Shown: positions 3,396 through 58,477 of the stretch, piece by piece
Layout of the letters: the number at the start of each line of letters is the position of its first letter
Position numbering within the stretch: position 1 is the first letter of the stretch
Translations under genes and position numbers: made by a program
Notes under the pieces: generated by a model
What the model was told of the DNA's origin: nothing
Seen by the model: only the letters and a program-made list of their open reading frames with translations
Databases searched by the model: none
From: Bactericera cockerelli
Lineage: Eukaryota > Arthropoda > Insecta > Hemiptera > Triozidae
Assembly: GCA_024516035.1 (NCBI GenBank)
Contig: CM044957.1
Span: 44,863,547 to 44,927,546 of the forward strand
Direction: 5' to 3'
Length of the DNA stretch: 64,000 bases

Positions 3396-3614
3396 GCACT
3401 GGTAGTCAAGTGGTTAAGGCGCTACTCTGGTAATCCAGGTAGCGTAGGGATCCGTTGGTTCGAATCCTACCCAGTGCATGAATTTTTCCTCATTAATTTC
3501 AGTTTGTGACCACATAATAATAAGACTCTTCTATGGATTATTTGGTAGACAATGCTTTGTACATTAACCTCGACTGGTGGTTACCTTCCACTAAAGAGTA
3601 TTATTATTATTATA
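3396..3614 (+). mobile_element. Family B tRNA-derived SINE (reference copy)
   Basis: The head GCACTGGTAGTCAAGTGGTT with B box GGTTCGAATCC is Ser/Leu-tRNA-like. The body carries GTGACCACATAATAATAAGA, then TGAGCATTAACCTCG and (ATT)n. Other copies: 5627-5845, 31293-31505, 49566-49777 (plus); 18590-18802 and partial 21323-21402, 26120-26160, 35630-35710 with 35828-35850, 36166-36250, 40023-40106, 53520-53590 (minus). Confidence 0.92.
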
Positions 3615-28476: not shown

Positions 28477-28585
28477 CTAAGCGTATTTGAAGAAGGGTTT
28501 GGCCGTCGTGTCAGTGACGATGCCTCGACATATCAACGCAAACTCTCGCACAATATCCAGTAGCTTCCTTTTGTTTGTTCGTTCC
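28477..28585 (-). CDS. IPO13: IPO13 exon 16 (stop codon)
   Basis: The acceptor is AATCCACAG. Completing the Arg codon left by exon 15, it reads ERTNKRKLLDIVREFALICR and GIVTDTTAKPFFKYA followed by TAG. This matches the C-terminal NKRRVKEMVKEMTLLCRG motif of IPO13, so the gene's 3' end is in the window. Confidence 0.9.
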
Positions 28586-31500
28586 CTGTGGATTAGAAAG
28601 ACGTAAGATATCAAATTAAAAAAAAAAACAGAGTAAAAAGGGTAGATAATAAAATAATTATCAAATTTAGAACAGAGTAGATCATAAAATATTAAAAATA
28701 ATAATAAAAGGGTAGATAATAAAATGATTAAAAAAGTACTTCAAAAATTTGAAACACACTAAGCAAAAGAAAAAAAATCAAGGGCCAATTATATTTTCTT
28801 CGTAGTTTAATGGGCACCTGTAACTAAAAGTTCATGGTTTAATAGACGTTCAGTACACCTGTTATTTTTTTATTTTATTTTTTGCAGGATCAATATTTTG
28901 ACGTCGCTTGGAAAATTCGGTCTTTGTCCCGAAAAAAAACCCCCACAGCCCCTTGTTTAAAGAGCATTTCCCAGATATTATGATTAAATAATACCTAGTA
29001 ATGATTTTGAATGTCTCAGAGGAATTACTTATTGAAGAACCTAGTACATTTACTTCCAGTTGCGCAGTCGCTTAAAACAGTTAAAATGGATTATGTACCG
29101 GTAGCACAGTGGTAAAGGCGACATTCTGTGAATCCAGACATTCTAGAGGTCGCGGGTTCGAAACCCAGCCGGGGCATTTTTTTTTTTTTTTTAACAAGAA
29201 CTGACAAGAACTTATTTTTTCCCCCCATTCATTACAATATTATTAACATAAAAAAAAAAAAATGACATGTATAATTCATTTTTACAACAACTAAAAAAAA
29301 TTTCTACTTTGACAAGTTATCCTCTCATTTGGAATATTTACCACAAAATAATATGTCTTGGGCTTACTGCTGGAATAACGGGGCTTAACAGTCCCAATCG
29401 GGCAGTATAAATGAGGCGATATTATTATTATTACTTACAGTCGCGTAGTCGCTTAAAACAGTTCAAATAGATCAGAAGACATCCCTAATAAAAACAAGAA
29501 CATACTCAAATCCCCTACAAAATCATGCATGAAAAAATTCAATGATATGCCCCAACAACCCTCTTTAACACTTTGAGCCCCAGAGCTGGGATCGGCGAGT
29601 GAGCACGAGGGACCAAGGCAAAAATGCGTTTTGCACCCTTCGTACCAAAGTTTTTTAACTGTAATATTGTGTTTTTTTTCGACAAAATTCGATAAATTTA
29701 CGTTTTTCAGCTGTACCTTATATACTTTATGATTTAACTTCAAAGTAAGGAAGGTCGTGAATACCATAAATATAGAGTACTCATGTCCACAGTCAAATTT
29801 TGGGTGAGGGTCATATATGGTACTCATTTGATTTATGAAATGTCAGCTGAAAGTCATATATGGTATTCATGGGCTCAAAGTGTTAAATGAATACATGTGT
29901 GAATGAATGAGCATACCAGTTATTGCTTGATTGTTGTAATATATAACTTTCAAGTGTAGGTATTTGAAAAAAAAAACAAAACAAAAAAAAGACTCACCTC
30001 AACACAAACTTGAGGAACTGCTGCTTGAGCTCGGAGGAGGCGCGGGGGAGGGGAAGTCGTCGTCGGCCAGCACAACGCTCATCCACCTGTACAGAGAGTC
30101 GCAGTACTTCTTGTTGAGGGAGAGCACAATGTCGGACAAGCTCTCCAGACAGCTCTGCGGCGAGCTGTCGCCTGGGGGGGGGAGGGGGTGCGATAATAAA
30201 TAAAAGGGTTGGGTGGAAGAGATTGCCACAGGCAATAACGCCGCCCTTTAGTTAGGACATATCGCTCATCCACCTGTACAGAGAGTCGCAGTACTTCTTG
30301 TTCAGGGAGAGCACAATGTCGGACAAGCTCTCCAGACAGCTCTGCGGCGAGCTGTCTCCTGCGAGTGAAAGGGAGGAGGTGCGATAATATAATATAGGGT
30401 TGGGTGGAAGAGATTGCCACAGGCAATAACCCCGTCCTTTAGTTAGGACATATCACTCATCCACCTGTACAGAGAGTCGCAGTACTTCTTGTTCAGGGAG
30501 AGCACAATGTCGGACAAGCTCTCCAGGCAGCTCTGCGGCGAGCTGTCGCCTAGGAGGGGGGGGGAGGAGGTGCAACAATATAAAAGGGTTGGGTGGAAGA
30601 GATTGCCATGGGCAATAACCCCGTCCTTTAGTTAGGACATATCACTCATCCACCTGTACAGAGAGTCGCAGTACTTCTTGTTCAGGGAGAGCACAATGTC
30701 GGACAAACTCTCCAGACAGCTCTGCGGCGAGCTGTCGCCTAGGAGGGGGGGGGGGAGGAGGTGCAACAATATAAAAGGGTTGGGTGGAAGAGATTGCCAT
30801 GGGCAATAACCCCGTCCTTTAGTTAGGACATATCACTCATCCACCTGTACAGAGAGTCGCAGTACTTCTTGTTCAGGGAGAGCACAATGTCGGACAAACT
30901 CTCCAGACAGCTCTGCGGCGAGCTGTCGCCTAGGAGTGGGGGGGGGGGGGGGGTAGGTGCGATAATATAATATAGGGTTGAGTGGAAGAGATTGCCATGG
31001 GCAATAACCCCGCCCTTTAGGTAGGACATTAACTTTTTTTTTGAAAAGTTATCATATTTGTGTTGATCACTATCGTGATATCACAACTACTCAAACTCGC
31101 TTTACTAAATCTACACTGAAACCGGGACTTGAACCACCGACCTCCAGGATACGAGTCCGCCGCCTTATCGATCAAGCTGCTGAGGTCGGTTTTCAACTGA
31201 CACAGTATAAAATCTGACAGTCTTGTTATTTGTCAATCAAAATTTCAAGGACTAATAAACTTTAATAAAGATAAATTTAATCATAGATCTTCGTGCACTG
31301 GTAGTCAAGTGGTTAAGGCGTTGGTCTGGTAATCCAGGTAGCGCAGGGATCCGTTGGTTCGAATCCCACCCGATGCAACAATTTTTCCTCATTAATTTGA
31401 GTTTGTGACCACATAATAATAATACTCTGAGGATTAGGTGGTAGAAAGTGCTTTGAGCATTAACCTCGCCTGGTGATAACCTTCCACTAAAGAGTATTAT

Positions 31501-34500
31501 TATATAATGCTTTTTCTTTGTGTTATTATGTCACAATTTTAGTGGGTAGCGCAGAATCATAGGACTTTACCACTTTAATTTACAATATCTTGTATTATTT
31601 TTTTGCCTAAAATTCTGCCACTGGTCGCTGCTTCACATTAAAGCAGCTACTCATTTTTCCTCACGAGGTATGAGTGGACCCCGAACATCCAAGTACAGAG
31701 CGGAAAAAATCCTCCCCCGCTGGGAATCGAACCCAGGTCACCATGTGTGCAATGCCTAGCGCGCTAACTCGCTCTGTCACAGTGACTAAAGAGTATTATT
31801 ATTAACAATACAATTATAATATGAATATTCTGACTATGAAACCTACAGGGTCCGCCAAAAAAAGGAGCCTCTCGAAATATCTAGAGAACCGATTAAATTT
31901 TTATAACACGTGCACCATTATATGAAGGGAAAAACCTTTTCTACTTGATTTTGGTTTTTTTTTTTTTTTAAATCATAATCAGGGGTGGCCCCAGTGGGTT
32001 CAACTTTGGAAACTTTAAAGGAACCAACCTTTTTGTAATACATTTTTAAAAAGTAGTTGACAAAAAAGTATTGTAAGACAGGTTAGAATTTTTAATCAAA
32101 ACAGGGCCGGAGATATCGTACATTTCATTTCACAGGTTTCAGTAATTTTTTAAAATAAAGTCATTGTATTTTTGTAAGAAAATGTTAAAAACATGTTTTC
32201 CATTTGTAATAAATTTTCATACCTTTTTGATACCATTAGCTTTACCAGAGGAGGAGGTCTTAATTTGAGTGGAGGTGTTAATATTTGAGTTCAGTGGTAA
32301 AATTTTGTGATCGTGAAAGCTGAGGGGGGCCGCACTGTAGTAAAAAATCGAAAAAGGGCTGGTTGATATTTTTCAATTAAAACCTATCGAGTGGGGTATT
32401 GAATGAAAGGTCTCGATGTCCTCATGCTTGGATTGAACATTTATAATGCGATAGTGGAATCTGTGTGAGGTTGACAGTTCACAGAACCACTAGTACTAAC
32501 CTATACATCGTACGAGGGTGTACACAAGCAGCTGGCCTCGGTTCTGAATTGCCGTCAACATGTTGGACCGATCCCGACTGATGCCGACGTAGGTGACGAG
32601 AAATGTGGCCACAGAACTCACTGTGCTAGCTTCTTGCGCGTTCAGACTGGAGATAGCTGGAAATAAGAAAATAAAACACTCATTTTAATGTGAAATAACA
32701 TAAGTGTGGCCACAGAAATCACAGTGCTAGCTTCTTGCGTGTTCAGACTGGAGATAGCTGGAAATAAGAAAATAAAACACTCATTTATTTACAGAAGTGT
32801 AGCCACAGAACAGAAGTGTGGCCACAGAACTCACAGTGCTAGAGTAGGCCCCGACATCCAAAGTACAGAGACGAAAAATTCCGACCCCAGCCGAGCATGC
32901 TACGGTCTAGCTGGGGACGTCAAACAGGGAGAAGACCAGTGTCTCGCTAGAGGACTATAAACAGAGAAGAGACAAGCCAACACTTACAATACAGGCTAGT
33001 TTGCAGATTCCTAAGGGTTTAATGGCTTAAAAAGAAAAGTCCAAGTCCTCATGATGGTTAATCCCACATAGAAATATGTGGTTCAGGACGAGCCAAAATT
33101 GCTATAAAGTTGGCTGGAGACCATTGCCCCCCCCCTCCAGTGGCGTAACGGTTGTGACTACCGCCCGTAGTCCAGAGATCCTGAGTTCGATTCCCGGTTG
33201 GAGCAGACTTTTCGCACGGAAAATTCTGTTCCCTTCGAACATGTGACGCTGGCAATTACGGCCCTACCCAGGCTGGGTGAGGTTAATGTGGGTAGCTGGT
33301 ACGATTCCCAGCGAATGGAGGGTAAAACCCCCGTCCTGTCAACCTCAAAGTCAGGACGTTAAAACCAAATAGAATCAATGGACATGAATGGAGCCTAGAC
33401 ATTGGATCAGGGCGCCCATTCCTCTCACCACCGTGATTTAGGTATCAATACCTCCTATCTCACCACCGTGATTTAGGTATCAATACCTATCTCACCACCG
33501 TGATTTAGGTATCAATACCTATCTCACCACCGTGATTTAGGTATCAATACCTATATCACGGACACGGTATTATTAGGAAAAATAATAAAAAATAATAAAA
33601 ACTCACCACACATGAGCAAGGTGTCGAAGTTGACGTTCTCATTCTCCATGAGCACGGGCGAGCTCTTCTTCATCAGGCTGTACATCAGGATGAAGAACGT
33701 CTCCAGCACGTCTCCCTGCTCCGCCACTTGCGCATGCGCATCAGAGGCGGAGAAGATGGTCAGGGTGGCGCTGATCAGCTCCAGGACCACACAGGACAGG
33801 TAGCTGCGGAGCTGAGCGTTGCTGCCGTACAAGAGGAATAGCTGAAACACATTCCAATTAAAAATTCCTGCTAGAATTTTAAAATTTTAAACATCAAAAT
33901 TTCAAGTCAAAATTCTAGGAAGACATGACATCCAAAGAGCGTTTCAAAGACAAGCTCAATAAGGAGATGAGTGGAGAAAAACTGATTTTTTAATAAAAGG
34001 CAAAAATGATTGCGAAACAATATAATAAAAGAATTAAAAATTTCGAGTAGGTATAGTAGATTTATCCTTTTGATCAGCCACCTAGATTGAAAACTACCTG
34101 CACATACTTAATAAATCTTACTGGAACTGATCAGCTCCAGGAGCACACAGGACAGGTAGCTGCGGAGCTGAGCGTTGCTCCCGTACAGTAGGAAGAGCTG
34201 AAACACATTCCAATTAAACATTTCCGAGTAGGTATAGTAGATTTATCCTTTTGATCAGCCCCCTGAGCATTGCTGCCGTACAGTAGAAATAGCTGAAACA
34301 CATTCCAATTTAAAAAAAAAAAAATTGAAATCGGAGCAATAAAGTATTTTTTTTTTTTTTTTTTTTTTTACAAAAACGAACACAATACTTCCGATTTCTA
34401 ATATTAGAAATTTCTCGGAAGTAGACTGAGTAGGTATAGTAGACTTATCCTTTTGATCAGCCTCCTAGATTGAAAACTACCTGCACATACTTAATAAATC

Positions 34501-37500
34501 TTACTGGAACTGATGAGCTGAGCATTGCTGCCGTACAGAAGGAATAGCTGAAACACATTCCAATTAAAAAAAAAAAATTGAAATCGGAGCAATAAAGTAT
34601 TTTTTTTTTTTACAAAAACGGACACAATACTTCCGATTTCTAATATTAGAAATTTCTCGGAAGTAAAATGAGTAGGTATAGTAGAATTATCCTTTTGATC
34701 AGCCACATAGATTGAAAACTACCTGCACGTACTTAATAAATCTTACTGGAACTGATGAGCTGAGCATTGCTGCCGTACAGAAGGAATAGCTGAAACACAT
34801 TCCAATTAAAAAAAAAAAAATTGAAATCGGAGCAATAAAGTATTTTTTTTTTTTACAAAAACGAACACAATACTTCCGATTTCTAATATAAGAAATTTCT
34901 CGGAAGTAAAATGAGTAGGAATAGTAGAATTATCCTTTTGATCAGCCACCTAGATTGAAAACTACCTGCACATACTTAATAAATCTTACTGGAACTGATG
35001 ACCTCCAGGAGCACACAGGACAGGTAGCTGCGGAGCTGAGCATTGCTGCCGTACAGTAGGAATAGCTGAAACACATTCGATTTAAAAAAAAAAAATTGAA
35101 ATCGGAGCAATAAAGTATTTTTTTTTTTTTTTTCAAAAACGAACACAATACTACCGATTTCTAATTTTCGAAATTTCTCGGAAGTAAAATGAGTAAGTAT
35201 AGTAGCATTATACTTTTGATCAGCCACATAGATTGAAAACTACCTGCACGTACTTAATAAATCTTACTGGAACTGATGAGCTGAGCATTGCTGCCGTACA
35301 GTAGGAACAGCTGAAACACATTCGATTTAAAAAAAAAAAATTGAAATCGGAACAATAAAGATTTTTTTTTTTTTTTTTACAAAAACAAACACAATACTTC
35401 CGATTTCTAATATTAGAAATTTCTCGGAAGTAAAATGAGTAGGTATAGTAGAATTATCCTTTTGATCAGCCTCCTAGATTGAAAACTACCTGCACATACT
35501 TAATAAATCTTACTGGAACTGACCAGCTCCAGGAGCACACAGGACAGGTAGGTGCGGAGCTGAGCATTGCTGCCGTACAGTAGGAAGAGCTGAAACACAT
35601 TCCAATTAAACATTTCGAGTAGGTATAATATTAACACTCTTTAGTAGAAGATAACTACCAAGCGAGGTTACTGCTCAAAGCATTTTTCACCACCTAACCC
35701 TCAGAGTCTTACAGCCGTATTTATTTAATTTGAGCAATGTCTCAAGCATGATTTCCTTTAATATTATTGGCTAATACCTTGCTTGAGACATTGCTCAAAC
35801 AAATTTCTCTGTTCATAAATAGGGCTGTTTTTATTATGTGGTCGGAAGAATTTTTTTCCTTCTAATATTAGAAATCGGAAGTATTTTTAAATGAGAGGGT
35901 ACTGACACATCTTTGATATACTTAATAGTTTATAAAGTGAAAATTACTTACGGACCTAATAGAAGGCTCTGTTTTAACACAAGAGTTAATTTTTTTTTTT
36001 TTTTAGGCTTTAATGGCAGGATTCTCAATACAAATAATTATTATAACAATGAAAAACTGGAAACAATATATACAATAAAAATGAAAAAGTATATAAACAT
36101 ATGACCTAATGGCAATAACCCCACCCTTTAGTTAGGTCATATGTTTATAATTTTCAATTCTTCCACCCAACTCTTTAGTGGAAGGTAACCACCAGGCAAG
36201 GTTAATGCTCAAAGCACCTTCTACCACCTAACCCTCAGAGTCTTATTATTATAATAATTAACATTGTAATATTTTTTGCTTAAAAATAAATACAATTATT
36301 TTTTATCTATCTATCTATCTAATTAACATTAGAATTAGACAAAGATTTTTCAGAACCAACCTGTCTGGAGATCTCGAGGGTTGCTTTGTGCAGATGGAGC
36401 TTGTGAGCAGATACGACAAGATTAAGTAACGTGGGTACACAAGGAACAGCTTTGTCGCCTAACGTGATCAGGCCGTATTTTAAAGCATTACACAGCACCT
36501 GAAAATAAGATGAACATTCACAATAATAATAATAATAATAATAATAATGTGTTTCTTTGTGTTATTATATCACAACTTTAGTGGGTAGCGCAGAATTATA
36601 GGACTTTTCCGTACCTTTAATATCCCAATATCTTATTTTTGTCTATAATTCCGCCACTGGTCTCTGCTAACATTAAAGCAGCTACTCACTTTTCCTCACG
36701 AGGTATGAGTGGACCCCGAATACCTAAGTACAGAGCAGAAAAAATCGTGCTCCGCTGGGGATCGAACTCAGGTCACCTGTGCGTGCAATGCCTAGCGCGC
36801 TAACTCACTCGGCCACGGTGACTAATGAATATATTCACAATAAAATAAATAGTTTTGTAAAGCAATAGTCACCGTGGCCAACCTGGGATCGATCCCAAGC
36901 AGCGCAGAATTTTTTGGGCACTGTACTTGGATATCCGGGGTCCACTCATATGTACCTCGTGAGGAAAAATCAGTAGTTACTTGGTTGCATGAGTAAAGGC
37001 ATTACCAGAGTCTTAAGTATAGTGTAAAATAAACAGTGTAAGTGTCTCTTAGTAATGCTACGCTAGCCACAAAAATTGTGCAGAGGTCTTGTGCTTCATA
37101 AAAAATCATACTTTCTTTACTTAACTTCAAATTTGTAAAACACCTATAAGAGAAATTGGTTTTTTGTGTTTTTCTCTCAATCAGATAGGTGTTTCTGAAA
37201 ACACATCACTGAAAAAAAACCACATAATTTTAAGACTCGGTTCTTTACTTTCAAAAAAACACCGTGTTTTTCGAAAAATGTTAGTTCCAAAGGATTCTTC
37301 AAGATAGCGCCAGTAGAGTTTTGCTTTCGCGAAACGGAGTTGGCGTATTTTTTGTGAAATACGCCAAAGGTAGCAAAAAAGTAAAAGCGCCAAAATTTAA
37401 AAAAATCAAGAACATAAACAGAAAGCATAAAAACAAGAAAAGCTAATGTACCCGAAGCTACCAACGTGTTGAAATTTTTATCGAAATTTCTACAGGGTAC

Positions 37501-46500: not shown

Positions 46501-49500
46501 CGGGATAGTTTAGCAAAACAGATTTTATCTACGGACTAAAACTCCTTCAATTATTATATTCCGACCATTTCTATTTGTATATCATATCATTTTTTTTAAA
46601 ATCTCTTTTTTGTGTGTAACTGTCTATCTATTCTTCTAAACCTTCTTAAGGTAGGTAACGGTATCGTTTTGAAATAGGTATTTTTATTTTGAACGATTTA
46701 AAGAAAAGCATGACTACTGTCTTCTTGAGTCACACTCGTGTCTGTGTATTTCGCTATGGCACTAGAGTATCATCTCTGCAAATGCATGAGAACTCTCATA
46801 GTGGTAGGTGATTGATGTGCGTTAGTGTGATCAGGTCCATGTGCTCGAATATCTGATGCAAGTTTCAAAGTGTTAAGGGGACTTCAAGTGGAGGTTTGAT
46901 GTGTGTTAGGATGTGTCAGGTCTCCATATTGCTTCGAATAACTGATGCAAGTGTTAAGGTAAGGTCATAGAGGGTGATGTGTTAGATGTGTCAGGTCTCC
47001 AAATCTCGATAATCTGATGGGAATGTTTCAAGTGTAGGAGACTCTCATTGTTAGGTGTGTTGATGTGTGTTAGGATGTGATTCAGGGTCTCCAATGTTGC
47101 TTCGAATAATCTGATGGCAAGTGTTTTCAAAGTGTTAAAGGAGACTTTCATAGTGGTAGGTGTTGATGTGTGTTAGGATGTGATTCAGGGTCTCCGATAT
47201 TGCTTCGAATAATCTGATGGCAAGAGTTTTCAAAGTGTTAAAGGAGACTTCTTTCTATTAGTGTGTTAGAGTGATTGTAATGTGCTTCGATAATTTAGGT
47301 TTTCAAATGTAAAGAGATTCATAGTGTTGTGTTGTTAATGGCAGGTCTCCAATGTTGCTTCGAATAATCTGATGGCAAGTGTTTTCAAAGTGTTAAAGGA
47401 GACTCTCATAGTTTGTTAGGTGTTGATGTGTGATGGCAGGGTCTCCAATGTTGCTTCGAATAATCTGATGGCAAGTGTTTTCAAAGTGTTAAAGGAGACT
47501 CTCATATAGGTGTTGATGTGTGTTAGGATGTGGTGCAGGGTCTCCGATATTGCTTCGAATAATCTGATGGCAAGTGTTTTCAAAGTGTTAAAGGAGACTC
47601 TCATTGTGTCAGGTGTTGATGTGTGTAGGATGTGGTGCAGGTCTCCGATATTGCTTCGAATAATCTGATGGCAAGTATTTTCAAAGTGTTATTTAGATTT
47701 TTTAAACAATACTTGAAATAACATATTTATTTACAAATAAACATATTTATTTATTTAGTTTCTTCTCTTTTAATCACAAAGTTTCAATAGGGCCCTGAGT
47801 GCGTTAGCATGTGTTGCACCCATGCCAACTATCAAACATGCTAACTACAACTAAGTGCGCGGACACAACGGAGGCCTATACCCTGAACCCTGGGGGATAA
47901 CCAGTACATCTTAAGATAAGCTAACTATGCTATTGAATGTAAGCGGCCACAACGGAGTCCCGAAAATTGTCTATATCAAGTTATAGGTACCAGGGTCTGG
48001 GGTTGAGGCCAGGGTCCTCGTTGTGGCCGCCTGCTCAGGAACAAATAAACCTATCCAAGAGTAGTCACACGCTGTCGGTCATAGTTAATGATTATAACAT
48101 ATAACATCATAACTCTTATTATTATTATCTGACCTGGTTGCAGGGTTTTCAGTGAAACCTTACAATTAACACTGCGACCTAATTAGATCTATTGTGACCA
48201 GTTGATTCTATTTGTTTTAAACGTCCTGACTGAGATAGATAGTCAGGACGGGGGTTTTACCCTCCATTCACTGGAAATCGTACCAGCTACCCACATTAAC
48301 CTCACCCAGCTCGTAGGGCCGGAAATGCCAGCCTCACGTGTTTGGATTGAACAGAATTTTCGTCGAAAAGTCTGCCCAACCGGGAGTTGAACTCGGAACT
48401 CTGGACTACGGGCAGTGGTCACAACTATTACGCCACGGAGGCATCATAACTCTTGAAAGTAGTCACCATGGCCGAGAGGAGTAGCGCACTGGCTGCACGA
48501 ACGGGCACGGTGAACTGGGTTCGATTCCCAGCAGTCAACAAAATTTCTACTCTGTACTTAGATGTACGGGGTCAATTAGCTACTCATTTCTCCGCGATGA
48601 AAAATGAGTAGCTATTTGTATGAATAGCGAGTAGTGGCGGCTTTACGAGAGGGAAAATTACACAGATGTTAAAAAATGATAAAATTACGACCCCCCCCCC
48701 CCCGCCGGGTTGACTACTGTTCATTTAGTTTAGGACGAGCCAACAAAACTTGACAGTAAAATATTAAAAAAAAAAAAATATAAATTATTGACATATTTTG
48801 ACCACTAAAACTAATTCGTATAGATTATGAATATATTTTTTGATTTTTGGCCATTCACTTCATTACTACATATATCTAACAATTCAAATTCATGAAAAAC
48901 ACAAACCCAACTAAAAATTCACAGTTCTCTTTAAATTATTTTTGGTATTAAAAAATTCCAATCCAGGAAAAGGATTACAACAGATACAAGGATTACCGAG
49001 GACAACTCGGAAAGAGATTACAAGGAGTCCACTAAAGATGGAGCAAAAACTCGTGCGTATCCTTCATGTGGTGAAAATGAGGTGAGATGGTTCAACACCA
49101 CCATCAGGTATTTATGTGCGATTCTAAATAATTGATTTTTCTTATGAGTGTTTCACAGACTTTTTCATTTTGTAGCCATGAAACAGCAGCTAATGTTGAC
49201 ACTTTTGGTCTGTGTTGTAGCTTGACCATATCATAGCAGGCACGCCTCCCCTCTGATGGACATAGAGTGACAATATTTCATTTAGTTTTCTGGATCAATA
49301 GGGCCGAATTCTAAATAGTATTCGATTTAATCTACATGTTTACTATCCCTCAACTCGGTGTATAGTGCGCTGTGATTGGTTGAAAACTCCGACTTGAGGG
49401 CGTGTCAGGCTTAGCTTAACTTTAATCCTGTTTCATAATGTGATGATTTTTTGTTGGCTATACAACAATAACTGAAAGCTAATGATTACAAAATATACAT

Positions 49501-52500
49501 CAAACGTTGACAGATTTAAAAAAAAACAATCAAAAGGATAAATAATAATAATAGATAAATAATAAAAGTGCACTCTGATGGTCAATTTTTAACGCGCTAG
49601 TCTGGTAACCCAGGTAGCGTAGAGATCCGTTGGTTCGAATCCCACCCAGTGCATGAATTTTTCCTCATTAATTTGAGTTTGTGACTACAAAATAATAAAA
49701 CTCTGAGGGTTAGGTGGTAGAAAACGCTTTGAGCATTAACCTCGTCTGGTGGTTACCTTCCACTAGGTGTTATTATTATTAATAATTAAATTTTGTGTTT
49801 CTTTAATTATTGCAAACTTTAGAATTCTTAGCATAATTATACAGACTCTGTTTTCCTGTAGCACTATTATGCCCAACTTTTTCTCGTTTATGATATTTAT
49901 TTTTTAATCAATATCACTCGTTATGTAACCTTTCAATTCCAATTCTAATTTTCTTTTTTTCTTTTGTATCTAATTCTTTCTAAACCCAAACCTATGTATT
50001 CCATTAAACTTGAAATAATAAATTCATAAGATGAAAAAAAAAAAAAAAAAGTTACAAGATCAGAGCTATTGTATGTATGAATGTATTAAAAACCGTCATC
50101 AAGAAACAGGCAAGAGGAAGAAGTCCTCAGTCAAAGTAAGTCTATTTCATTCATTCTCACATAACCTAGCAATTAAATACATGATTACATGATTAAATAC
50201 ATAATACTTCATTATTGTCATGAACATTTTTTTGTAAATGGCAATACTGTTTATAAGAGTTTTCTCTTTCTAACATAACAGAGAAACATCATGAAACATG
50301 ATAGGTGATTCGAAATGAGTATTCATTACCTTTGCTAGTAAACATCAGAAAAACTTTTGCTAGAGAAAAAAAAAACCAACAAACAAAAGCAAACAAAAAT
50401 GGATTTATAAGTAGACCACTCTACATGATATCTTTAACAGACTATTGGTTGAGTAGATACAGCCTGATTAAGCACAGCCATTAGCCATTTGATTGTGTCT
50501 AAAGTTGGTTGATTTAATCTGCTCATTAGCAACTATGGGGTTATATCTGAGGAAAAGTAGACTGTTTATTGGTGTTTATAACTAATTAATGTCATCCATT
50601 GTTTTTCAGTTGTTATAGATGAAATTACGAGTATCAGCATTTGAAAGAAAAATGAAGAAATGATCTGGATGAAATTACTAGTGGTTGAAAGAATAACAAA
50701 GAAAAGCGATACAATCGCCACTGATTACATGGAATAAATGTCAAATTTAAAAACAAAAAAATTTAGGATCAATAAACTAAGGGAAAAGTAGATACAAAAA
50801 ATAAAAATATAGTTAGTTATCTAGAATCCTAATAACAACGATCTGATGAGCTAATACAAACCTTCCAATGTGCCAATGTTTACAACAAAATAACTTTAAA
50901 AGTCACCATAGTTTTACATTTTTAAAAACTCAGAGTATGTACTCTTGGGATATCGAATAAATAAAACTATTTAAGGTTTTGTAACTGAAAATACCTAAAT
51001 TAACTGAAATGACATATATTAATTCTATTTTTGATTCCTCCTCATTCTCCAGGTATCATACAATCCAAATCACCAGTTCAAATTCAAAGTTCCAGCACAA
51101 ATCCAAATCACCAGTTCCAAATTCAAAGTTCCAGCACAAATCCAAATCACCAGTTCCAAATTCAAAGTTCCAGCACCAATCCAAATCGCCAGTTCCAAAT
51201 TCAAAGTTCCAGCACAAATCCAAATTCATCAGTTCAAAATTCAAAGTTCCAGCACCAATCCAAATCGCCAGTTCCAAATTCAAAGTTCCAGCACAAATCC
51301 AAATCACCAGTTCCAAATTCAAAGTTCCAGCACAAATCCAAATCACCAGTTCAAAATTATAAGTTCCAGCACCAATCCAAATCGCCAGTTCAGCCAGCAC
51401 AAATCCAAATCACCAGTTCAAAATTCAAAGTTCCAGCACCAATCCAAATCGCCAGTTCCAAATTCAAAGTTCCAGCACAAATCCAAATCACCAGTTCAAA
51501 ATTCAAAGTTCCAGCACAAATCCAAATCACCAGTTCAAAATTATAAGTTCCAGCACCAATCCAAATCGCCAGTTCCAAATTCAAAGTTCCAGCACAATCC
51601 AAATCACCAGTTCAAAATTTAAAGTTCCAGCACCAATCCAAATCGCCAGTTCCAAATTCAAAGTTCCAGCACAAATCCAAATCACCAGTTCCAAATTCAA
51701 AGTTCCAGCACAAATCCAAATCACCAGTTCAAAATTATAAGTTCCAGCACCAATCCAAATCGCCAGTTCCAGCACAAATCCAAATCACCAGTTCAAATTA
51801 TAAGTTCCAGCACCAATCCAAATCCCCAGTTCCAAATTCAAAGTTCCAGCCCCAATCCAAATCACCAGTTCAAAATTCAAAGTTCCAGCACAAATCCAAA
51901 TCACCAGTTCAAAATTATAAGTTCCAGCACCAATCCAAATCGCCAGTTCCAAATTTCAAAGTTCCAGCACAAATCTAAATCAACAGTTCCAAATTCAAAG
52001 TTCCAGCACAAATCCAAATCACCAGTTCCAAATTCAAAGTTCCAGCACAATCCAAATCGCCAGTTCCAAATTCAAAGTTCCAGCACAAATCCAAATCATC
52101 AGTTCAAATTCAAAGTTCCAGCACCAATCCAAATCGCCAGTTCCAAATTCAAAGTTCCAGCACAAATCCAAATCACCAGTTCAAATTATAAGTTCCAGCA
52201 CAAATCAAAATCGTTACAAGTTCCAAATCTACAGTTCCCCAAAATTAAAGGTAAGTTAAAATTATCTTTCATTATATGTTTAAAGTCATGAATTTAAATC
52301 ATGGTGACTTAAAAAATTATTTATGTATTTAAAAAAATCAGTCGTTGTGTTAGGATTCTCTTATTCACGTCTTCTTTATAAAATTCATATTGTTAAAAGA
52401 TCTGAAGAATAATTTTGAATGTAATAAAAACAAAAATTATTTTGTACTTACCTCAATACCATATTTTTGTTTTTATTAAAAACCCTGTTGTATTTTTTTA

Positions 52501-55500: not shown

Positions 55501-56987
55501 TATCTTGTATAGGGTTCTTCCATGTGTTCTGAATTGTGCGAAGTATGAAAGATGCAAGCTGGAAAAGAATAATGAATTTCAATGTAATGGTAATAGAAAA
55601 AATGTAAACCTAAAAAATTGGTGATAGAGACCCTGGGTGCTTGGAGTGTTACTTCGACAGAATGGCTGGGCTAACTGGGTAGGCAATTGTTTAGAGATGT
55701 ACGGGTGAACCCCAAATCAAAACTATTTCTTGCCCAGAAAATTGGCTTGACCATTCATAAGGATAATGCTGCATTCATCCTTGGGTCATGGAATGAATTA
55801 ATTATTATTATTTTTAATTACAAAAAAAAAACTTAGAAGTTTGGCTTATTTACATTATCAATTTCTAGTAGATAGTGCTTTAAATTTAGATATGTGATCT
55901 TTATAGTCAGTCAGCAAATGAGCAGTAAAATGAAAGTTGTTGAATTATTAGTTTATTGGATAAAAAACAAAGCTTTTGATTTGGGTTACTAGTGAAAATG
56001 AAATTACATAAATCAGTAATTCATTGATGCACCATTTCTTGTTGTCACTGAAATTAATCTATATCCGGCAAGTTTAGGACTATTTCTGGACTAAGCCATG
56101 ACTTTTTGTAAAATGGGCAATTTTAATCTAAATTTTAAGGGTCCCTACAAATTTAGCAATGTTTCAGTCATGTACAAGAAGGCTGAGTATTGTTATAACA
56201 TGCTAATTTGGGCTTACAGAGATACACAGCCTGTTAAAGACAACTTTGGGTCCATTTGCATAATACAGCACAGCATCCAATATTTTCCTCTTCAGTGTTT
56301 CATAGTTTTCATTGGGAATTTCTTTCCAGTCTCGGGAAATTTTCATATGCAGAGTAGTGGCAGCAAAAAATTGAGCCTCTGATGCCTGTAAGAGAAATTG
56401 TAATAATGTATGTATGAGTTCTCTTTTAATTAGTATATTTTAGAGGGTAGTGCAACATTACAAGTCACCTAACAACATTACCTAAATTTGGAAATGTTCA
56501 ACTACATAACCAAACCTTGGTCCTTAAGACTTGGGAGAGACATGCAGGGGAATATTGCCTCAACTTTAAGTAGACTGTCTGGGGAAGACTGGAAGAGTTT
56601 CTGGAAAAAGTTTTTTATGTATTTTAATACATAATAAAAAGCTTCACCTTATCAGCCTGCAGTAGATCCCATAGTACAACCCAAATGTGAGAAGAGCCAA
56701 ACCTTGGTCCTTGAGACTTGGGAGAGACATGCAGGGGAATATTGCCTCAACTTTAAGTAGACTGTCTTGGGAAGACTGGAGGAGTTTCTGGAAAAAGTGA
56801 TTCATGCATTTTAATACATAATAAAAAGCCTCACCTTATCAGCCTGCAGTAGATCCCATAGTACAACCCAAATGTGAGGAGAGCTCTGCACCCTGTTCAA
56901 CCATTCATGGGCCTCAGCTTGAGATTTGTCAGTCGAGTGGTAAAACTGAAATATTGCTTGTTCCAGGTTCTGTACAGAGATCTCCAT
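28477..56987 (-). CDS. IPO13: Importin-13 gene, whole coding span (16 exons located)
   Basis: Importin-13 is a karyopherin-beta receptor that carries cargo both ways through the nuclear pore under control of RanGTP. Conceptual splicing on the minus strand gives about 900 residues, against roughly 960 in vertebrate IPO13. Family landmarks appear in order: an N-terminal importin-beta-like segment (exons 1-2), the Xpo1-like helical region (exons 3-6, ending in a FWYILQ motif), STWSADDKEKFRCYRQDIAD in exon 7, HEAT-repeat helices in exons 8-14, and a C-terminal NKRKLLDIVREFALICRG motif in exon 16. All introns except intron 10 (GC-AG) have GT-AG ends, and exon phases agree except at exon 15. A TAG lies in frame five codons before the start. 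About 30-45 residues between exons 5 and 6 are not securely placed. Transportin-3 is the nearest alternative family, but the matched blocks fit IPO13 better. Confidence 0.9.
29177..29308. repeat. AT-rich insertion inside a family A SINE
   Basis: A 130-bp stretch of poly-T, poly-A and TTTTCCCCCCATTCATTAC splits the SINE exactly between its tRNA-like head (ending CCGGGGCA) and its body (TGACAAGTTATCC). No clear target duplication is visible. Confidence 0.65.
29998..30171 (-). CDS. IPO13: IPO13 exon 15 with apparent 1-nt deletion
   Basis: It reads GDSSPQSCLESLSDIVLSLN, KKYCDSLYRWMS and VVLADDDFPSP, matching the SLMDCFADILFALNKHCFSL...WI block. After FPS the reading frame breaks in a run of five C (rev-comp of about 30045-30055). 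The next frame gives RASSELKQQFLKFVL and joins exon 16 in correct phase. The exon length (174) is one short of what the flanking phases require. The unshifted frame runs into a poly-Ser string and TGA. The donor is TTGAG/GTGAGT. Assembly error and true lesion are both possible. Confidence 0.85.
30245..30960 (-). repeat. Exon 15 acceptor-end array (4 extra copies)
   Basis: Units of about 190 bp. Each holds a C-rich acceptor, the first 95 bp of exon 15 (CLESLSDIVLSLNKKYCDSL then YRWMS), then a jump into a retroelement 3'-end motif (CCTAACTAAAGGACGGGGTT on the minus strand). All decoys stop at WMS, where the real exon goes on to VVLADDDFPS. C-run lengths differ between units. Confidence 0.93.
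31040..31186 (-). mobile_element. Family D tRNA-derived SINE (reference copy)
   Basis: Minus strand: ACCGACCTCAGCAGCTTGAT, AGGTCGGTGGTTCAAGTCCC, then TAAAGCGAGTTTGAGTAGTT and GTGATATCACGATAGTGATC. Others: 1305-1400, 9346-9432, 61617-61710 (plus); 19390-19528, 43012-43205, 45016-45145 (minus). Confidence 0.88.
31845..32400. other. Possible single-ended mariner-type relic in IPO13 intron 14
   Basis: Starts ACAGGGTCCGCCAAAAAAAG next to a family E SINE and contains TCTCGAAATATCTAGAGAAC, phrases typical of mariner-MITE ends. The inverted partner end is not evident. Confidence 0.4.
32501..32656 (-). CDS. IPO13: IPO13 exon 14
   Basis: It encodes AISSLNAQEASTVSSVATFL, VTYVGISRDRSNMLTAIQNR and GQLLVYTLVRCIG. 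This aligns with the ALKFPEAPTVKASCGFFTEL...LLIAVLEAIGG segment. The acceptor is TTTCCAG and the donor ATAG/GTTAGT, phase 1. The acceptor end is repeated once fully and once partially upstream (32704-32845). Confidence 0.9.
32704..32845 (-). repeat. Exon 14 acceptor-end duplicate
   Basis: A second copy of the exon 14 5' end (TTTCCAG then CTATCTCCAGTCTGAAC and ACTGTGATTTCTGTGGCCAC) with its upstream intron sequence, then a shorter third piece at about 32817-32842. None continues into the rest of the exon. Confidence 0.85.
33420..33560. repeat. 33-bp palindromic minisatellite near exon 13 donor
   Basis: Four units of CACCACCGTGATTTAGGTAT plus CAATACCTATCT. Each contains the hairpin AGGTATCAATACCT, and on the minus strand GGTG/GTGAG and ATAG/GTATTG resemble donors. 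A single-unit copy of the surrounding element lies inverted at 37995-38097. Confidence 0.85.
33607..33841 (-). CDS. IPO13: IPO13 exon 13 (acceptor end amplified)
   Basis: It encodes 78 codons plus one base: LFLLYGSNAQLRSYLSCVVL, then a stretch including VLETFFILMYSLMKKSSPVL and ending FDTLLMC. This fits the HPDIVDSFMQLLAQALKRKP region. The acceptor is GTGTTTCAG and the donor GTGTG/GTGAGT. It is GC-rich compared with its surroundings. The acceptor and first 40-75 bp recur seven times upstream. Confidence 0.9.
34125..35612 (-). repeat. Exon 13 acceptor-end array (7 extra copies)
   Basis: Units of roughly 245 bp upstream of exon 13. Each has the acceptor GAATGTGTTTCAG, the first 40-75 bp of the exon (LFLLYGSNAQLRSYLSCV), and an intron block. 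Most also carry a small palindromic element with TTACTTCCGAGAAATTTCTA. The copies begin near 34200, 34303, 34554, 34799, 35068, 35315 and 35600. Long units keep the exon's CTGTCCTGTGTGCTCCTGGA; short ones stop after about 40 bp. Confidence 0.9.
35711..35827. mobile_element. Hairpin MITE inserted in a family B SINE
   Basis: The arms ACAGCCGTATTTATT / AATAGGGCTGT and TTTGAGCAATGTCTCAAGCA / TGCTTGAGACATTGCTCAAA pair inversely. The SINE's CTCAGAGTCTTA...TTATTATGTGGTC is split by it. Confidence 0.78.
36361..36498 (-). CDS. IPO13: IPO13 exon 12
   Basis: It encodes 46 residues: VLCNALKYGLITLGDKAVPC, then VPTLLNLVVSAHKLHLHKAT and LEISRQ. This matches AVCAIFEKSVKTLLDDFAPM. The acceptor is TTTTCAG, the donor CAG/GTTGGT is weak, and both ends are phase 0. 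Confidence 0.91.
37111..37689. other. IPO13 intron 11, unique part
   Basis: Includes TACAGGGTACGGCAAAATAT at 37491, which resembles one end of the mariner-type MITE; no partner end was found. The bases 37177-37464 are open on the minus strand but have no family match. Confidence 0.4.
37690..37955. mobile_element. Nested inverted-repeat element in IPO13 intron 11
   Basis: The inner hairpin arms CGCAGTCATATCCGACATTG and AATGTCGGATATGACTGC span 37783-37870. The outer arms have ACGCGCACTAAAACTTTTT and, inverted, AAGATTTAGGGCGCGCGT. A shorter relative lies at 38120-38175. Confidence 0.72.
39041..39406 (-). repeat. 33-bp array of acceptor-plus-donor units in IPO13 intron 11
   Basis: Eleven tandem units on the minus strand. 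Each has a polypyrimidine-AG (TCTTTCTCCCTTGACAG), then three bases TCG or TAG, then GTAAGTCATTCTC. A twelfth unit lies at 39557-39590 next to the true exon 11 donor, separated by a retroelement tail inserted at about 39407-39556. In the TAG-type units AG lies directly against GTAAGT, the form of a recursive-splice site. Confidence 0.92.
39604..39789 (-). CDS. IPO13: IPO13 exon 11
   Basis: It encodes 62 residues: TLPDVKTSIIFHLRILGALF, then a helix LQSLLPALDNIVKVWHADVN and IIE. It corresponds to the LAIVHILGLLSNLF and LQQVFQLIQKVLSKWLND helices. The acceptor is TATTTCAG, the donor GAG/GTAAGT, and both ends are phase 0. The donor is the first member of a 33-bp repeat series in intron 11. Confidence 0.92.
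40618..40782 (-). CDS. IPO13: IPO13 exon 10 (GC donor)
   Basis: It encodes 55 residues: GALSSDTLKLGECARLMYII, then GKVCTLLTESAVIEALSSLI, ending QLAEKKE. This matches the CMWLMQALGFLLSAL...LHSLISPYIQQLEKLAEE region. The acceptor is AATTTCAG. The only donor in register is GAG/GCAAGT, a GC-AG intron. Reading past it gives nine non-conserved residues and a stop. Confidence 0.9.
41350..42647 (-). repeat. Exon 9-end / 5' splice-site array (15 extra copies)
   Basis: A 79-90 bp unit repeated directly after the real exon 9 donor. Each unit has about 62 bp of the exon 3' end (encoding ITRDCAPSLRPFAPLILFAC and Q), a donor GTACTGG or GTACCGG, and 16-30 bp of (TTA)n-rich intron. One copy (near 41441) has CAAGTACC instead of CAGGTACC. 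Reading straight on from exon 9, the frame stays open for over 1.1 kb. No copy carries a convincing acceptor. Confidence 0.95.
42648..42829 (-). CDS. IPO13: IPO13 exon 9 (source of the 16-donor array)
   Basis: It completes the split Gly codon and reads GAYAEWIDVNEDVMADMLPL, then ALKDITRDCAPSLRPFAPLI and LFACQ. This matches IGALSEWLADHPVMINSVLP and the LKKICRECKYDL helix of IPO13. The acceptor is CATCACAG, and the donor CAG/GTACTG is phase 0. The last 62 bp or so of the exon plus the donor recur 15 more times downstream in intron 9. Confidence 0.93.
43411..43431 (-). repeat. Second copy of the exon 8 donor
   Basis: The exon 8 end GATGCTATAG followed by GT is repeated 24 bp into the intron as GATGCTATAG/GTAAAT. 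Use of the distal donor would add 24 bp, keeping frame, so both sites are usable in principle. Confidence 0.7.
43438..43693 (-). CDS. IPO13: IPO13 exon 8
   Basis: It encodes 85 residues plus one base. LHCSSILREELFEFLLCKLM is followed by WQPLESLIHAFYAVAEDIS and ends NTRIVITVLDAIG. It aligns with the TEALLYGFQSIAETID and DTVMFTIGA helices of IPO13. The acceptor is CCTTAG. The donor TATAG/GTAGGT has a second copy of the exon end plus a donor 24 bp further on (43411-43431). Confidence 0.92.
44217..44400 (+). mobile_element. Family G degenerate SINE-like repeat
   Basis: Marked by AGCAACGTCCAGCGAGGTGA, GATGCTGGCATTCCGG, GGGTGAGGTTAATGTG and GTTTGTGAGTTTCCT. Relatives: 54225-54312 and 59033-59165 (plus); 21430-21725, 21840-22160, 28150-28420 (minus). 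The last overlaps the IPO13 3' flank. Confidence 0.75.
44592..44774 (-). CDS. IPO13: IPO13 exon 7
   Basis: It encodes 61 residues, starting AEVSSQPTHVRLKLTKDIVP and ending with the conserved block FSTWSADDKEKFRCYRQDIA and DTL. This is the IPO13 signature GFWSSDEKEQFRIYR. The acceptor is ACATCAG, the donor TTG/GTAAGG, and both ends are phase 0. Confidence 0.93.
45258..45470 (-). CDS. IPO13: IPO13 exon 6
   Basis: It encodes 71 residues: KVLAAIYSLIISLGETHTSL, a middle helix with RVVLSCTNAPGEYPVHETYS, and SFSFWYILQ at the end. The NAPGEYPVHET...FWYILQ block is diagnostic (human has GIPGHYPVNET...FWYTLQ). The acceptor is CCCTTTCAG, the donor CAG/GTATGC, and both ends are phase 0. Confidence 0.93.
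45721..46739. other. IPO13 intron 5, no feature recognised
   Basis: AT-rich with loosely repeated phrases (TTTATTGAAGGGGT, AACAAATAATTTCTG, GCAAAA-CAACTTTTTC). Suggests an old degenerate tandem repeat. No exon with acceptable splice sites found. Confidence 0.4.
46740..47690. repeat. About 95-bp degenerate minisatellite in IPO13 intron 5
   Basis: Eight to ten diverged units including TTGCTTCGAATAATCTGATG and CAAAGTGTTAAAGGAGACTC. Many single-base indels give it the look of noisy assembly. The minus strand reads NTLKTLAIRLFEAISETLHH in several units. This lies where IPO13 is missing 30-45 residues, so it may descend from the missing exon, but no unit has clear splice sites. Confidence 0.75.
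47940..48035. repeat. Inverted repeat GCGGCCACAACG
   Basis: AAGCGGCCACAACGGAGTCCCG and, inverted, GGTCCTCGTTGTGGCCGC face each other over about 50 bp. A third GACACAACGGAGGCC lies at 47860. Probably a small unclassified MITE. Confidence 0.55.
49778..51052. other. IPO13 intron 5, no feature recognised
   Basis: Unique AT-rich DNA. A plus-strand donor-like CAAA/GTAAGT at about 50138 and an acceptor-like GTTTTTCAG near 50610 are present, but no coding block lies between them and the 39-bp array. Confidence 0.4.
51053..52250 (+). repeat. 39-bp minisatellite in IPO13 intron 5
   Basis: About 30 units of CAAATCCAAATCACCAGTTC plus CAAATTCAAAGTTCCAGCA. Because 39 is divisible by 3, several frames stay open over 200-500 bp with Ser/Pro/Gln/Asn-rich strings. 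It is bounded on the left by ATTCTCCAG and on the right by AAAG/GTAAGTT, like an exon on the plus strand. No full-length frame is open and no homology is recognised. Confidence 0.9.
53198..53236 (-). CDS. IPO13: Candidate 39-bp IPO13 micro-exon between exons 5 and 6
   Basis: A possible exon with acceptor TATTTTTAG and donor ACC/GTGAGT. In the phase left by exon 5 it reads NKARSEVLKYIL, an amphipathic helix-like string where the family expects the helix after the DSSVEAI position. It leaves phase 2, so a further exon would still be needed before exon 6. The acceptor side is part of a local two-copy duplication (53240-53400). No homology is decisive, so it may be chance. Confidence 0.3.
53240..53415. 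repeat. Two-copy duplication beside the candidate micro-exon
   Basis: Two copies of about 105 bp sharing AAATTAATTTTCACAA and ATAAATTTAAATTATAT. On the minus strand each ends at a TTTGTATTTNTAG acceptor-like site, and the second adjoins the candidate exon at 53198-53236. Confidence 0.7.
53660..53937 (-). mobile_element. Family E tRNA-derived SINE (reference copy)
   Basis: Minus strand: GTCACCGTGGCAGAGTGAGT, GACCTGGGTTCGATCCCCAG, GGTCCACTCATACCTCGTGA, and GCACAAGGCCTC near the end in inverse sense. Others: 31507-31788, 36549-36823, 52592-52795 (partial), 59196-59478, 62335-62618, 63400-63555 (minus); 27510-27720, 36868-37110, 48460-48660, 61500-61600 (plus). Two body types exist (GAAGCACAAGGCC and TTTGTGTTATTATGTCACAA). 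Confidence 0.9.
53982..54153 (-). CDS. IPO13: IPO13 exon 5
   Basis: It starts with the last two bases of a Val codon and runs VTSLIDSLLQHNNPQVVMES, then a segment ending IPLPSCEPLYSHLIHIALGS and WTKESS. The IPLPSCEPL segment matches VPLQDCEAL of IPO13. The acceptor is TGTTGCAG, and the donor AGCGA/GTAAGT leaves phase 2. Confidence 0.87.
54656..54722 (-). CDS. IPO13: IPO13 exon 4 (short)
   Basis: A 67-bp exon reading TVNLPHADKSLVHHELESSI and then TL, split after one base of the next codon (donor CTAG/GTAAGG). The acceptor is TTTCAG. It fills the position of the helix after LPEE in human IPO13. Conservation is weak, but the frame joins correctly on both sides. Confidence 0.78.
55062..55293 (+). 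mobile_element. Helitron-like non-autonomous element, copy 2
   Basis: It starts TCTCTATATATAAAAC and ends GGGCAAACGGCTAG before T, with the 3' hairpin CCCGTTGCAAAGCACGGG. It inserted between A and T as Helitrons do and lies in IPO13 intron 3. It shares nearly its whole length with copy 1. Confidence 0.8.
55412..55558 (-). CDS. IPO13: IPO13 exon 3
   Basis: It encodes 49 residues: LASFILRTIQNTW, then LSLFQKTSAIPPERAACVVL, then EILKVIPEE. The last segment matches the LLELLTVLPEE helix of the Xpo1-like domain. The acceptor is CTTTTCCAG, the donor GAG/GTAATG, and both ends are phase 0. Confidence 0.9.
56218..56385 (-). CDS. IPO13: IPO13 exon 2
   Basis: It encodes 56 residues, starting ASEAQFFAATTLHMKISRDW and ending VVFNRLCIS. 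This matches the importin-beta N-terminal domain block of IPO13 (FGASALHIKISRYW in human, recalled from memory). The acceptor is CTTACAG, the donor TCT/GTAAGC, and both ends are phase 0. Confidence 0.9.
56513..56699 (-). repeat. Duplicate of IPO13 exon 1 3' end plus start of intron 1
   Basis: About 187 bp nearly identical to 56700-56885. It carries the last 60 bp or so of exon 1, the AAG/GTGAAG donor and the following intron sequence. The copy has no start codon and no acceptor, so it is not an extra exon. Confidence 0.85.
56835..56987 (-). CDS. IPO13: IPO13 exon 1 (start codon, 51 codons)
   Basis: The exon begins MEISVQNLEQAIFQFYHSTD and ends LLQADK, phase 0, with donor AAG/GTGAGG. The WLNRVQSSPHIWVVLWDLLQ stretch is the typical first-helix pair of importin-13. 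An in-frame TAG five codons upstream supports this ATG. Its last 60 bp or so plus the donor are duplicated just downstream (56513-56699). Confidence 0.88.
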
Positions 56988-58477
56988 GTTGGTAGATCCC
57001 TATAATCAGTTAACTTAACAATTAACAGTTGGGCCCTTCTTCCTTTTCCTCTAGTTAAATTTCAAAATTTTGAATTTAAATTTACACTTTTCTCATGTAA
57101 ATGAAACCAACAACAAATAGTTATCGCAACGAATTACATTTGTCAACAGGGTTCAAAAAACGACGCTGGACATTGGACATCAGTTCAGAAAAAATCCCAT
57201 TATCGTTTTTTCCCTTTCCAAATTTCCTAAATAATTTCTTCATAATGAAAACAAATATTTCATATTATTTTATTCAATTTTGTATACATACAAAAAAATG
57301 TCAAAAAACGCTTGCATACGAGTCTGCAACCATTGGGACATTTTCATGTCGGTTTTCCCCACCTTCCAGGCGGGGAAAACTTTTTTCTCTTCTCTCTTTT
57401 TATAATTTAATATTTCGTTATTGTGCGCATGACACATACTTTTTCTCTTCTCTCTTTTTATAATTTAATATTTCGTTACATAATTTCGTTACATAATTTC
57501 GTTACATAATTTCGTCACATAATTTCGTTACATAATTTCGTTACATAATTTTGGTTATGTGCCAGAGCAAAGACATGAAAATGTCAATTTAATATTTCGT
57601 TACATAATTTCGTTACATAATTTCGTCACATAATTTCGTTACATAATTTCGTCACATATTTTCGTTACATAATTTCGTTACATAATTTTGGTTATGTGCC
57701 AGAGCAAAGACATGAAAATGTCAAAAGGAAAATAAATATTTCGTTACATAATTTCGTTACATAATTTCGTCACATAATTTCGTTACATAATTTCGTTACA
57801 TAATTTTGGTTATGTGCCAGAGCAAAGACATGAAAATGTCAAAAACGCTTGCATACGAGTCTGCAACCATTGGGACATTTTCATCTTTACTATTCAAGGT
57901 CCAAAACCCAACTGACCAAATTTCGTATTGTGCGCATGACACATACCTTCTCTCTTCTCTCCCTCTACAATTCAATACTTCGCCATTGGGCGCATGACAC
58001 ACACTTTCCCTCTTCTCTCCCTTTACAATTCAATATTTCGTTACATAATATCGTTACATATATAATATCGTTACATAATATCGTTACATAATTTCGTTAC
58101 ATAATTTCGTCACATAATTTTGGTTATGTGCCAGAGCAAAGACATGAAAATGTCAATATCGTTACATAATATCGTTACATAATTTCGTTACATAATTTCG
58201 TCACATAATTTTGGTTATGTGCCAGAGCAAAGACATGAAAATGTCAAAAATAATCTTTTCAGCATTGAGAGTCACACGATTTTGACGTACACTGTATAAA
58301 TTTGATAATCTTTTCCCAAACAGTTGGTAACTTCATTGATGGTTACGTTATCAGTGTTATCACTTTTCAAATTTCATTTGAATAGTCTTGTTGATTAGTT
58401 AGCTGAAATTATTAATTTATTTTACTTAAAACACAGTAATAACATTTATTAACAAGTGTAGTTTAACTGAAAGCATA
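56988..58477. promoter_or_regulatory. Divergent IPO13/UBA5 intergenic region
   Basis: The two conserved genes are start-to-start, with 1490 bp between ATGs. No TATA box stands out near either start. The middle is packed with short repeats (57421-58250). A larger pair of related blocks, each including GCTTGCATACGAGTCTGCAA, starts near 57305 and 57845. Shared regulation is an inference from arrangement only. Confidence 0.6.
57421..58250. repeat. Tandem ACATAATTTCGTT array with a longer interspersed module
   Basis: A 13-bp unit around CGTTACATAATTT is repeated in clusters (57465-57550, 57595-57690, 57735-57815, 58040-58115, 58155-58210). Each cluster ends in a conserved module TTGGTTATGTGCCAGAGCAA followed by AGACATGAAAATGTC, present five times. 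The repeated core TTACATAA resembles a bZIP half-site pair (PAR/C/EBP-type TTACGTAA), which is suggestive only. Confidence 0.8.

Follow-up and report, generated by a model that had tools for sequence, protein, structure and literature searches.

At the loci sampled in the genome of the psyllid Bactericera cockerelli, tandem arrays of three or more copies hold an exon-intron junction at a rate far above the prediction of random placement. At loci other than the importin-13 gene (IPO13), a junction was present in 14 of 22 such arrays where 1.92 were expected under uniform placement (P 7e-11), and two-copy repeats at the same loci showed no junction excess (3 of 32, with 2.06 expected; P 0.34). 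On a possible reading, which we put forward tentatively, tandem repeats would expand preferentially at splice junctions without being born there preferentially, through homology- or splicing-coupled re-copying, in which case the decoys carried by 9 of 38 sampled exons would be kept young by exchange with the working exon.

The stretch of DNA analysed (the window, 64,000 nucleotides) is C3:44863547-44927546 of a 565-Mb genome, in which we encountered 12 chromosome-size contigs of 22-65 Mb; three psyllid assemblies in print have 13 pseudo-chromosomes apiece (PMC12203342). An IPO13 gene of 17 exons lies on the minus strand of the window from 28477 to 56987, and was delineated by tblastn with psyllid homologues, a PDB match and reading of the splice sites; the first exon (E1) occupies 56835-56987 and the last (E17) 28477-28585. 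Its best solved relatives in the PDB match are Drosophila cadmus (2x1g) and human importin-13 (2x19), and its three closest homologues are those of Cyamophila willieti (71%) and Diaphorina citri (67%) and one unnamed sequence (72%). When the E13 region was used as a query against the genome, a single place was matched. Sixteen exons were placed together with their splice sites, and the seventeenth, E6, is indicated by the psyllid homologues. The start of E6 is repeated within an array at 46792-47691; its 3' half was not located, a frameshift-tolerant alignment failing to rise above background. The exon-proximal copies of this array differ from the unit almost solely by gaps (26, beside about 3 substitutions, in the copy at 46793-46955), and genuine E6 is therefore probably masked by base errors; its end would probably lie in the low-quality stretch at approximately 46715-47040 of the minus strand, which has deletion-type errors like those of an uncorrected long read. 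The reading frame of E16 shifts inside a C-rich run (30040-30060), probably through an assembly base error, and this is a further sign of base errors in the assembly. Several other features of the region were recorded. The E11 donor is of the GC type (AAAGAG|GCAAGT, 40618). A 13-bp repeat, ATTTCGTTACATA, with higher-order units of 91 and 118 bp, is located directly upstream of IPO13 (57470-58247), and the intron after E5 contains about 29 copies of a 39-bp unit (51062-52213), a multi-copy array without a known exon or junction. Three tRNA family matches (963-1044, 3396-3478 and 31295-31377), one of them within an IPO13 intron, are possibly tRNA-derived repeats.

The 30 mapped IPO13 junctions were each searched by blastn with the ±120 nt around them, and junction-crossing copies were found at five; all of the arrays described here are read on the minus strand. 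The E1 donor has one such copy, 95% identical, within a two-copy duplication of a 187-bp unit (56510-56884, TRF) that consists of the last ~50 nt of E1, the GT and intron sequence. The E10 donor has 15 copies, or 16 with the genuine one (41332-42711; TRF and blastn), in units of 81, 87, 88 or 90 bp made up of the final 62-64 nt of E10, GTACTG and about 20 nt of intron. On the acceptor side, blastn detected seven copies for E14 (33770-35620), each with about 25 nt of the intron end and 30-71 nt of E14; the genuine acceptor is at 33841 and the nearest copy starts about 285 nt away. The E15 acceptor has one copy by blastn, in a 101-bp unit present twice and once more in part (32600-32842), and the E16 acceptor has four, or five with the genuine one, in an array of a 187-191-bp unit (30076-31029; TRF and blastn) comprising about 90 nt of the intron end and about 95 nt of E16. 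A sixth junction array, absent from the first-pass annotation of this DNA, is that at the E6 acceptor (46792-47691), in which a unit of about 100 bp joins some 29 nt of the intron end (...CATCAG) to some 70 nt of exon, its exon-proximal copies being rich in deletions.

The first-pass annotation had reported a copied edge for at least seven of 16 exons, its exons 1, 8, 9, 11, 13, 14 and 15 being E1, E9, E10, E12, E14, E15 and E16 in our numbering. The edges of E1, E10, E14, E15 and E16 are clearly copied, and in these five the unit spans the junction, as had been stated for every case. The remaining two are different. E9 is a weak case, read from the sequence as a 24-bp doubling, GATGCTATAG|GTA (43410-43450), with about 10 exon nt, and blastn gave no junction-crossing match at this donor. 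At E12, a 33-bp array after the donor (39040-39603; GTAAGT...TTGACAG plus 3 nt) repeats the GTAAGT donor and the TTGACAG upstream of it with almost no exon, and the exon ends in GAG where the copies have TAG or TCG. The genuine exon is indeed always the outermost unit, but this follows from how the genuine exon is recognised. The E12 array is interrupted by a stretch of a dispersed motif, TATGTCCTAACTAAAGGG...TTATTGCC..GGCAATCTCTT, for which there were 11 and 12 matches in the window against 0.11 and 0 expected (7952-7996, 15605-15649, 36124-36141, 39401-39445, 40490-40534, 62689-62733 and 30217-31030). The motif is also located in the E16 unit and again within the array of a kinase locus (L037). 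A dispersed element was considered as the source of the arrays and rejected, the motif being missing from the other junction units that were read.

Because IPO13 had been chosen for its pattern, other loci were required. XPO1, TNPO3 and 38 exons encoding kinase domains, with 114 junctions, were picked regardless of repeats. XPO1 (17 exons), which was found through its domain, has exon-edge arrays at donors 2, 6, 11, 12 and 13; the array at donor 2 has 38 copies of a 26-28-bp unit in addition to the genuine site, and that at donor 6 has 19 copies of an 80-bp unit in addition to the genuine site. No arrays at all were found at TNPO3 (9 exons). The kinase loci were hand-picked from 134 matches before their arrays were inspected, on domain cover and, mostly, avoidance of pairs, which gave the 38 partial loci and 11 single-ORF loci; 10 of the 76 junctions of the partial loci had low splice-site scores and were excluded. 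Arrays contained a junction in nine of the 38 exons and crossed 13 of the 66 called junctions, with both edges arrayed in L033, L041, L047 and L052. When the nine loci were read by eye, the copies included the splice site itself; in the acceptor array of L052 only 7 exon nt are copied. Junction arrays are thus not special to IPO13, and the earlier description of them as a property of one gene was too narrow.

The placement of arrays was assessed by collapsing each array to one unit and giving that unit random positions, those lying entirely within an exon being disallowed. Arrays were taken to have at least three copies when three or more repeat pairs fell within 1.5 kb, and the two copies of a two-copy repeat were not necessarily adjacent. 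When arrays of every copy number were combined, a junction was present in 17 of 54 at loci other than IPO13, where 3.99 were expected under uniform placement (P 5.5e-8) and 5.67 under placement weighted by GC content (P 8.5e-6). TRF alone gave 11 of 34 at these loci against 1.68 expected, and none among the 18 arrays with fewer than 2.8 copies. The first-pass annotation had argued that minisatellites born at random should not fall on junctions with such frequency; that argument is borne out by multi-copy and TRF arrays and not by two-copy repeats. At the kinase loci, 11 of 13 junction arrays were multi-copy as against 7 of 31 others (Fisher P 2e-4), some of which may themselves hold a junction, other exons in the flanks being unannotated. 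A simpler test of the kinase loci gave 9-11 edge arrays against 2.6-4.2 expected over six settings. XPO1 alone was weak (4 of 10 arrays; P 0.04 uniform, 0.11 GC-weighted). The XPO1 exon-11 array went uncounted in the placement test, probably through loss to the microsatellite filter. For IPO13 itself, a junction was crossed by 6 of 13 arrays where 1.69 were expected (P 0.003), one of the six depending on the inferred position of E6; TRF alone was weak here (4 of 14, P 0.049) because at E6 and E14 it fails to link the genuine copy with those lying further off. It should be noted that all these P values assume independence of the arrays, and that four kinase exons supply two junction arrays each.

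A different picture is obtained per assembled base, where there is no junction excess: in IPO13, 5 of 30 junctions were repeated, compared with 28.6% of intron positions, and the corresponding values were 4 of 32 and 32.4% for XPO1 and 0 of 16 and 0% for TNPO3. A genome-wide scan comparing junctions with other positions had been named in the first-pass annotation as the result that could overturn its proposal, and at the loci sampled the outcome depends on the unit of counting, being negative per base and positive per array. We think that the per-base count is biased against junctions, since an intronic array is counted once for each of its copies and a junction once only, and for this reason the collapsed per-array test was used in its place. 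Uniform seeding predicts a ratio of intron to junction coverage near the mean copy number, which is about 5 for IPO13 and about 7 for XPO1 in two analyses with slightly different settings; the observed ratios were 1.7- and 2.6-fold.

Composition accounts for part of the excess, since the non-coding arrays are richer in GC than their background (0.415 against 0.359, P 0.0016). Neutral minisatellite instability would offer a fuller explanation along these lines: complex GC-rich DNA would amplify readily, exons would form GC-rich islands in an AT-rich genome, and a constrained exon would keep an array recognisable for longer. Purging may add to the effect, as duplications lying wholly within exons would be removed and those at junctions need not be. 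As a sole cause, GC content was rejected: under GC-weighted placement 2.83 of the multi-copy arrays were expected to hold a junction and the same 14 of 22 did so (P 1e-8), although the weights derive from few non-coding arrays (34 in the comparison with background, the placement test having drawn its own weights from these loci) and complexity was left unmatched. The junction arrays are, moreover, more alike internally than other multi-copy arrays (median 94.8% against 91.6%) and so do not look older, as prolonged recognisability would have them. We consider an explanation by composition and neutral instability doubtful.

The copies vary in the manner of exons. Their exon parts, with the genuine exon excluded, contain 25 synonymous and 13 non-synonymous segregating variants where 29% synonymous is expected, and the skew holds under five mutation spectra, including ones with strong transition and C/G bias (P at most 8e-4); the alignments were gap-free, but short local alignments may conceal gaps, and two of the 19 rows (L033 and L046) yielded no copies. 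Differences from the genuine site were also fewer in exon parts (135/5072, 2.7%) than in intron parts (355/6265, 5.7%) over all arrays, a count to which the L052 acceptor, with its 7 exon nt, contributed no copies. The XPO1 exon 2 and L024 arrays supply 182 of the 355 intron differences, and without them the values are 128/3968 (3.2%) and 173/3993 (4.3%), P 0.01; the exon part is the more divergent in 6 of 22 arrays (E10, E14, E15, XPO1 exon 12, the L033 donor and the L041 acceptor). Since the contrast between exon and intron leans on two arrays, the synonymous skew carries more weight. It would not be expected of dead copies that drift neutrally. Translation of the copies, an idea suggested by it, was rejected on finding in-frame stops right after the exon part in several arrays. 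The simplest reading of these alignments is that the functional exon, or alleles of it, would serve to renew the copies. Unit boundaries were looked over by eye for microhomology, and nothing striking was seen.

These observations can be accommodated if the arrays are minisatellites seeded on splice junctions, by random short duplication followed by expansion through recombination templated on the conserved exon, a reading that we put forward as possible, hold tentatively and rate above the alternatives considered. Duplications of roughly 25-250 bp would arise approximately at random in introns and across exon edges, as the placement of two-copy repeats suggests, and those holding a junction would become multi-copy far more often than others, as the junction bias of the larger arrays suggests. 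Expansion, we infer, would then proceed by repeated recombination or gene conversion templated by the conserved exon, whether that of the chromosome itself or that of its homologue, a step with which the exon-like variation is consistent. If the introns of different haplotypes diverge strongly, exons would be the main long stretches of identity, and strand invasion, unequal exchange and re-invasion at exon edges could yield further copies of exon edge and intron edge together. The arrays may be tolerated because exon definition and the order of transcription would give preference to the site nearest the exon, and in donor arrays with AG|GT, which are the majority, units could be removed stepwise. 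Against this reading stand the six arrays whose exon part is the more divergent and the lack of arrays at TNPO3, and the paired loci described below may be paralogues rather than alleles.

The single-ORF kinase loci, a set of 11 candidate intronless loci, offer a small control. No array was found at their 22 ORF ends, compared with the 13 of 66 splice junctions crossed at the partial loci (P 0.03), and TRF arrays were scarcer around them (3 in 33 kb) than around the spliced kinase exons (43 in 115 kb). Expansion by exon homology would predict about three or four arrays at the 22 ends, and the control thus hints that introns or splice sites themselves matter. This is better accounted for by mutation coupled to splicing or transcription, in which R-loops, bound snRNPs or RNA-templated repair would break and re-copy junctions independently of haplotype homology, than by an exon template. 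Donors and acceptors are both affected, sometimes at the two edges of one exon, as such coupling would have it. We nevertheless regard coupled mutation as unlikely: two-copy repeats are unenriched at junctions, so that the first step would be without junction preference, and the single-ORF set is small, with one of its 22 ends (in L058, lacking an in-frame ATG) resembling an acceptor.

For two loci, a second copy was located elsewhere on the chromosome concerned, at distances of about 120 and 300 kb and with a divergence of ~5-19% in the pieces that could be aligned. The second copies repeat the same junctions at other numbers, with 22 and 8, 5 and 1, and 7 and 3 exact copies in three comparisons, alleles and paralogues being indistinguishable here; the 22 is a lower bound, the array extending past the retrieved piece, and the second comparison becomes 6 and 3 when three mismatches are allowed. 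Similar pairs of kinase exons are frequent on one chromosome (for example L024/L037 and L033/L038), with separations that on visual inspection are often some 70-490 kb; they may represent unpurged haplotypes, segmental duplicates or paralogues. The presence of arrays of other lengths in the second copies makes it unlikely that the assembler invented them, although copy numbers are insecure and the assembly is locally poor; the over-expansion during assembly that the first-pass annotation listed among possible origins is unlikely on the same ground. Its other two suggestions, decoy function and replication slippage primed at junctions, are possible. A broader form of the objection from assembly is that noisy long reads, drawn from a pool of divergent individuals, were wrongly joined where exons are conserved. 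The pairing of many kinase exons would agree with this, as would the read-like stretch at 46715-47040, the frame change in E16 and a mostly synonymous pattern of differences, which would suit stitched alleles; in Diaphorina citri, false tandem duplications are attributed to the use of many psyllids (PMC11659978). Units of 26-240 bp in up to 38 repeats that begin in exons should fit within long reads, unlike joins on the scale of haplotypes, and the error-rich copies of E6 follow one another in tandem and so probably belong to one read. An artefact of this kind is accordingly improbable as the origin of the arrays. Very improbable, finally, is that selection has kept and enlarged the arrays for extra splice sites that tune splicing efficiency or add robustness, which is possible but required by nothing: changes affect 6 of 368 positions in the decoy splice dinucleotides and 355 of 6265 in the remainder of the intron part, but this contrast is no longer significant (P 0.10) without the XPO1 exon 2 and L024 arrays, would also be explained by exchange with the exon, and stands beside the stop codons that soon follow the copied exon part in several arrays.

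Minisatellites, or VNTRs, are a known class of tandem repeats, and the arrays resemble them in consisting of head-to-tail units of about 25-240 bp, inside the range of about 10-250 bp for that class (TRF and blastn; some two-copy blastn repeats are near each other and not head-to-tail), in being GC-richer than their surroundings and in varying in copy number between related loci. Unlike minisatellites in general, the multi-copy arrays here hold a working splice junction far above the expectation from placement. Introns can be gained when DNA with splice-site sequence in it is duplicated in tandem; the duplicated DNA here likewise contains such sequence, but existing introns were enlarged and no new intron was identified. 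Introner elements are dispersed sequences with splice sites that alter many introns in one genome. Many introns of one genome are also altered here by sequences bearing splice sites, but in the arrays that were read the unit is built from the exon edge and the intron of its own locus, and the dispersed motif present inside some arrays does not constitute the unit. One study (PMC10809524) describes 792 human introns located within tandem repeats, and dual-specific splice sites in the tandem arrays of UBC and VCX3A, the AG|GT arrays of UBC being spliced stochastically. As in those arrays, so far as that account goes, the splice sites here are repeated in tandem, and a single AG|GT might thereby act as donor or acceptor; AG|GT was counted by eye at 10 of 14 donor arrays and is present at 8 of 13 other IPO13 donors, which is no clear excess. 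The UBC and VCX3A introns, again by that account, are embedded in repeats and have lengths that are multiples of the unit, whereas here only an exon edge has been copied into a pre-existing intron, acceptors included. Among the matches listed in searches of an open-access library there was no report of junction-centred tandem arrays or expansion, which is weak evidence of novelty, subscription papers lying mostly outside it.

Splice-site choice has classically been studied by experiments in which splice sites are duplicated. If the arrays hold in reads, they would constitute a natural experiment of this kind at many loci, with 2 to nearly 40 repeats that include exon context, at donors and acceptors alike, and living tissue would offer tests of the rules that govern splice-site choice, exon definition and stepwise splicing. 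The arrays are natural test cases for how the correct splice site is picked among near-identical copies, and they carry a warning for annotation, since pieces of exons within the introns of psyllids can lead gene prediction astray. If the pattern is true, exon-intron junctions would be places of concentrated repeat expansion.
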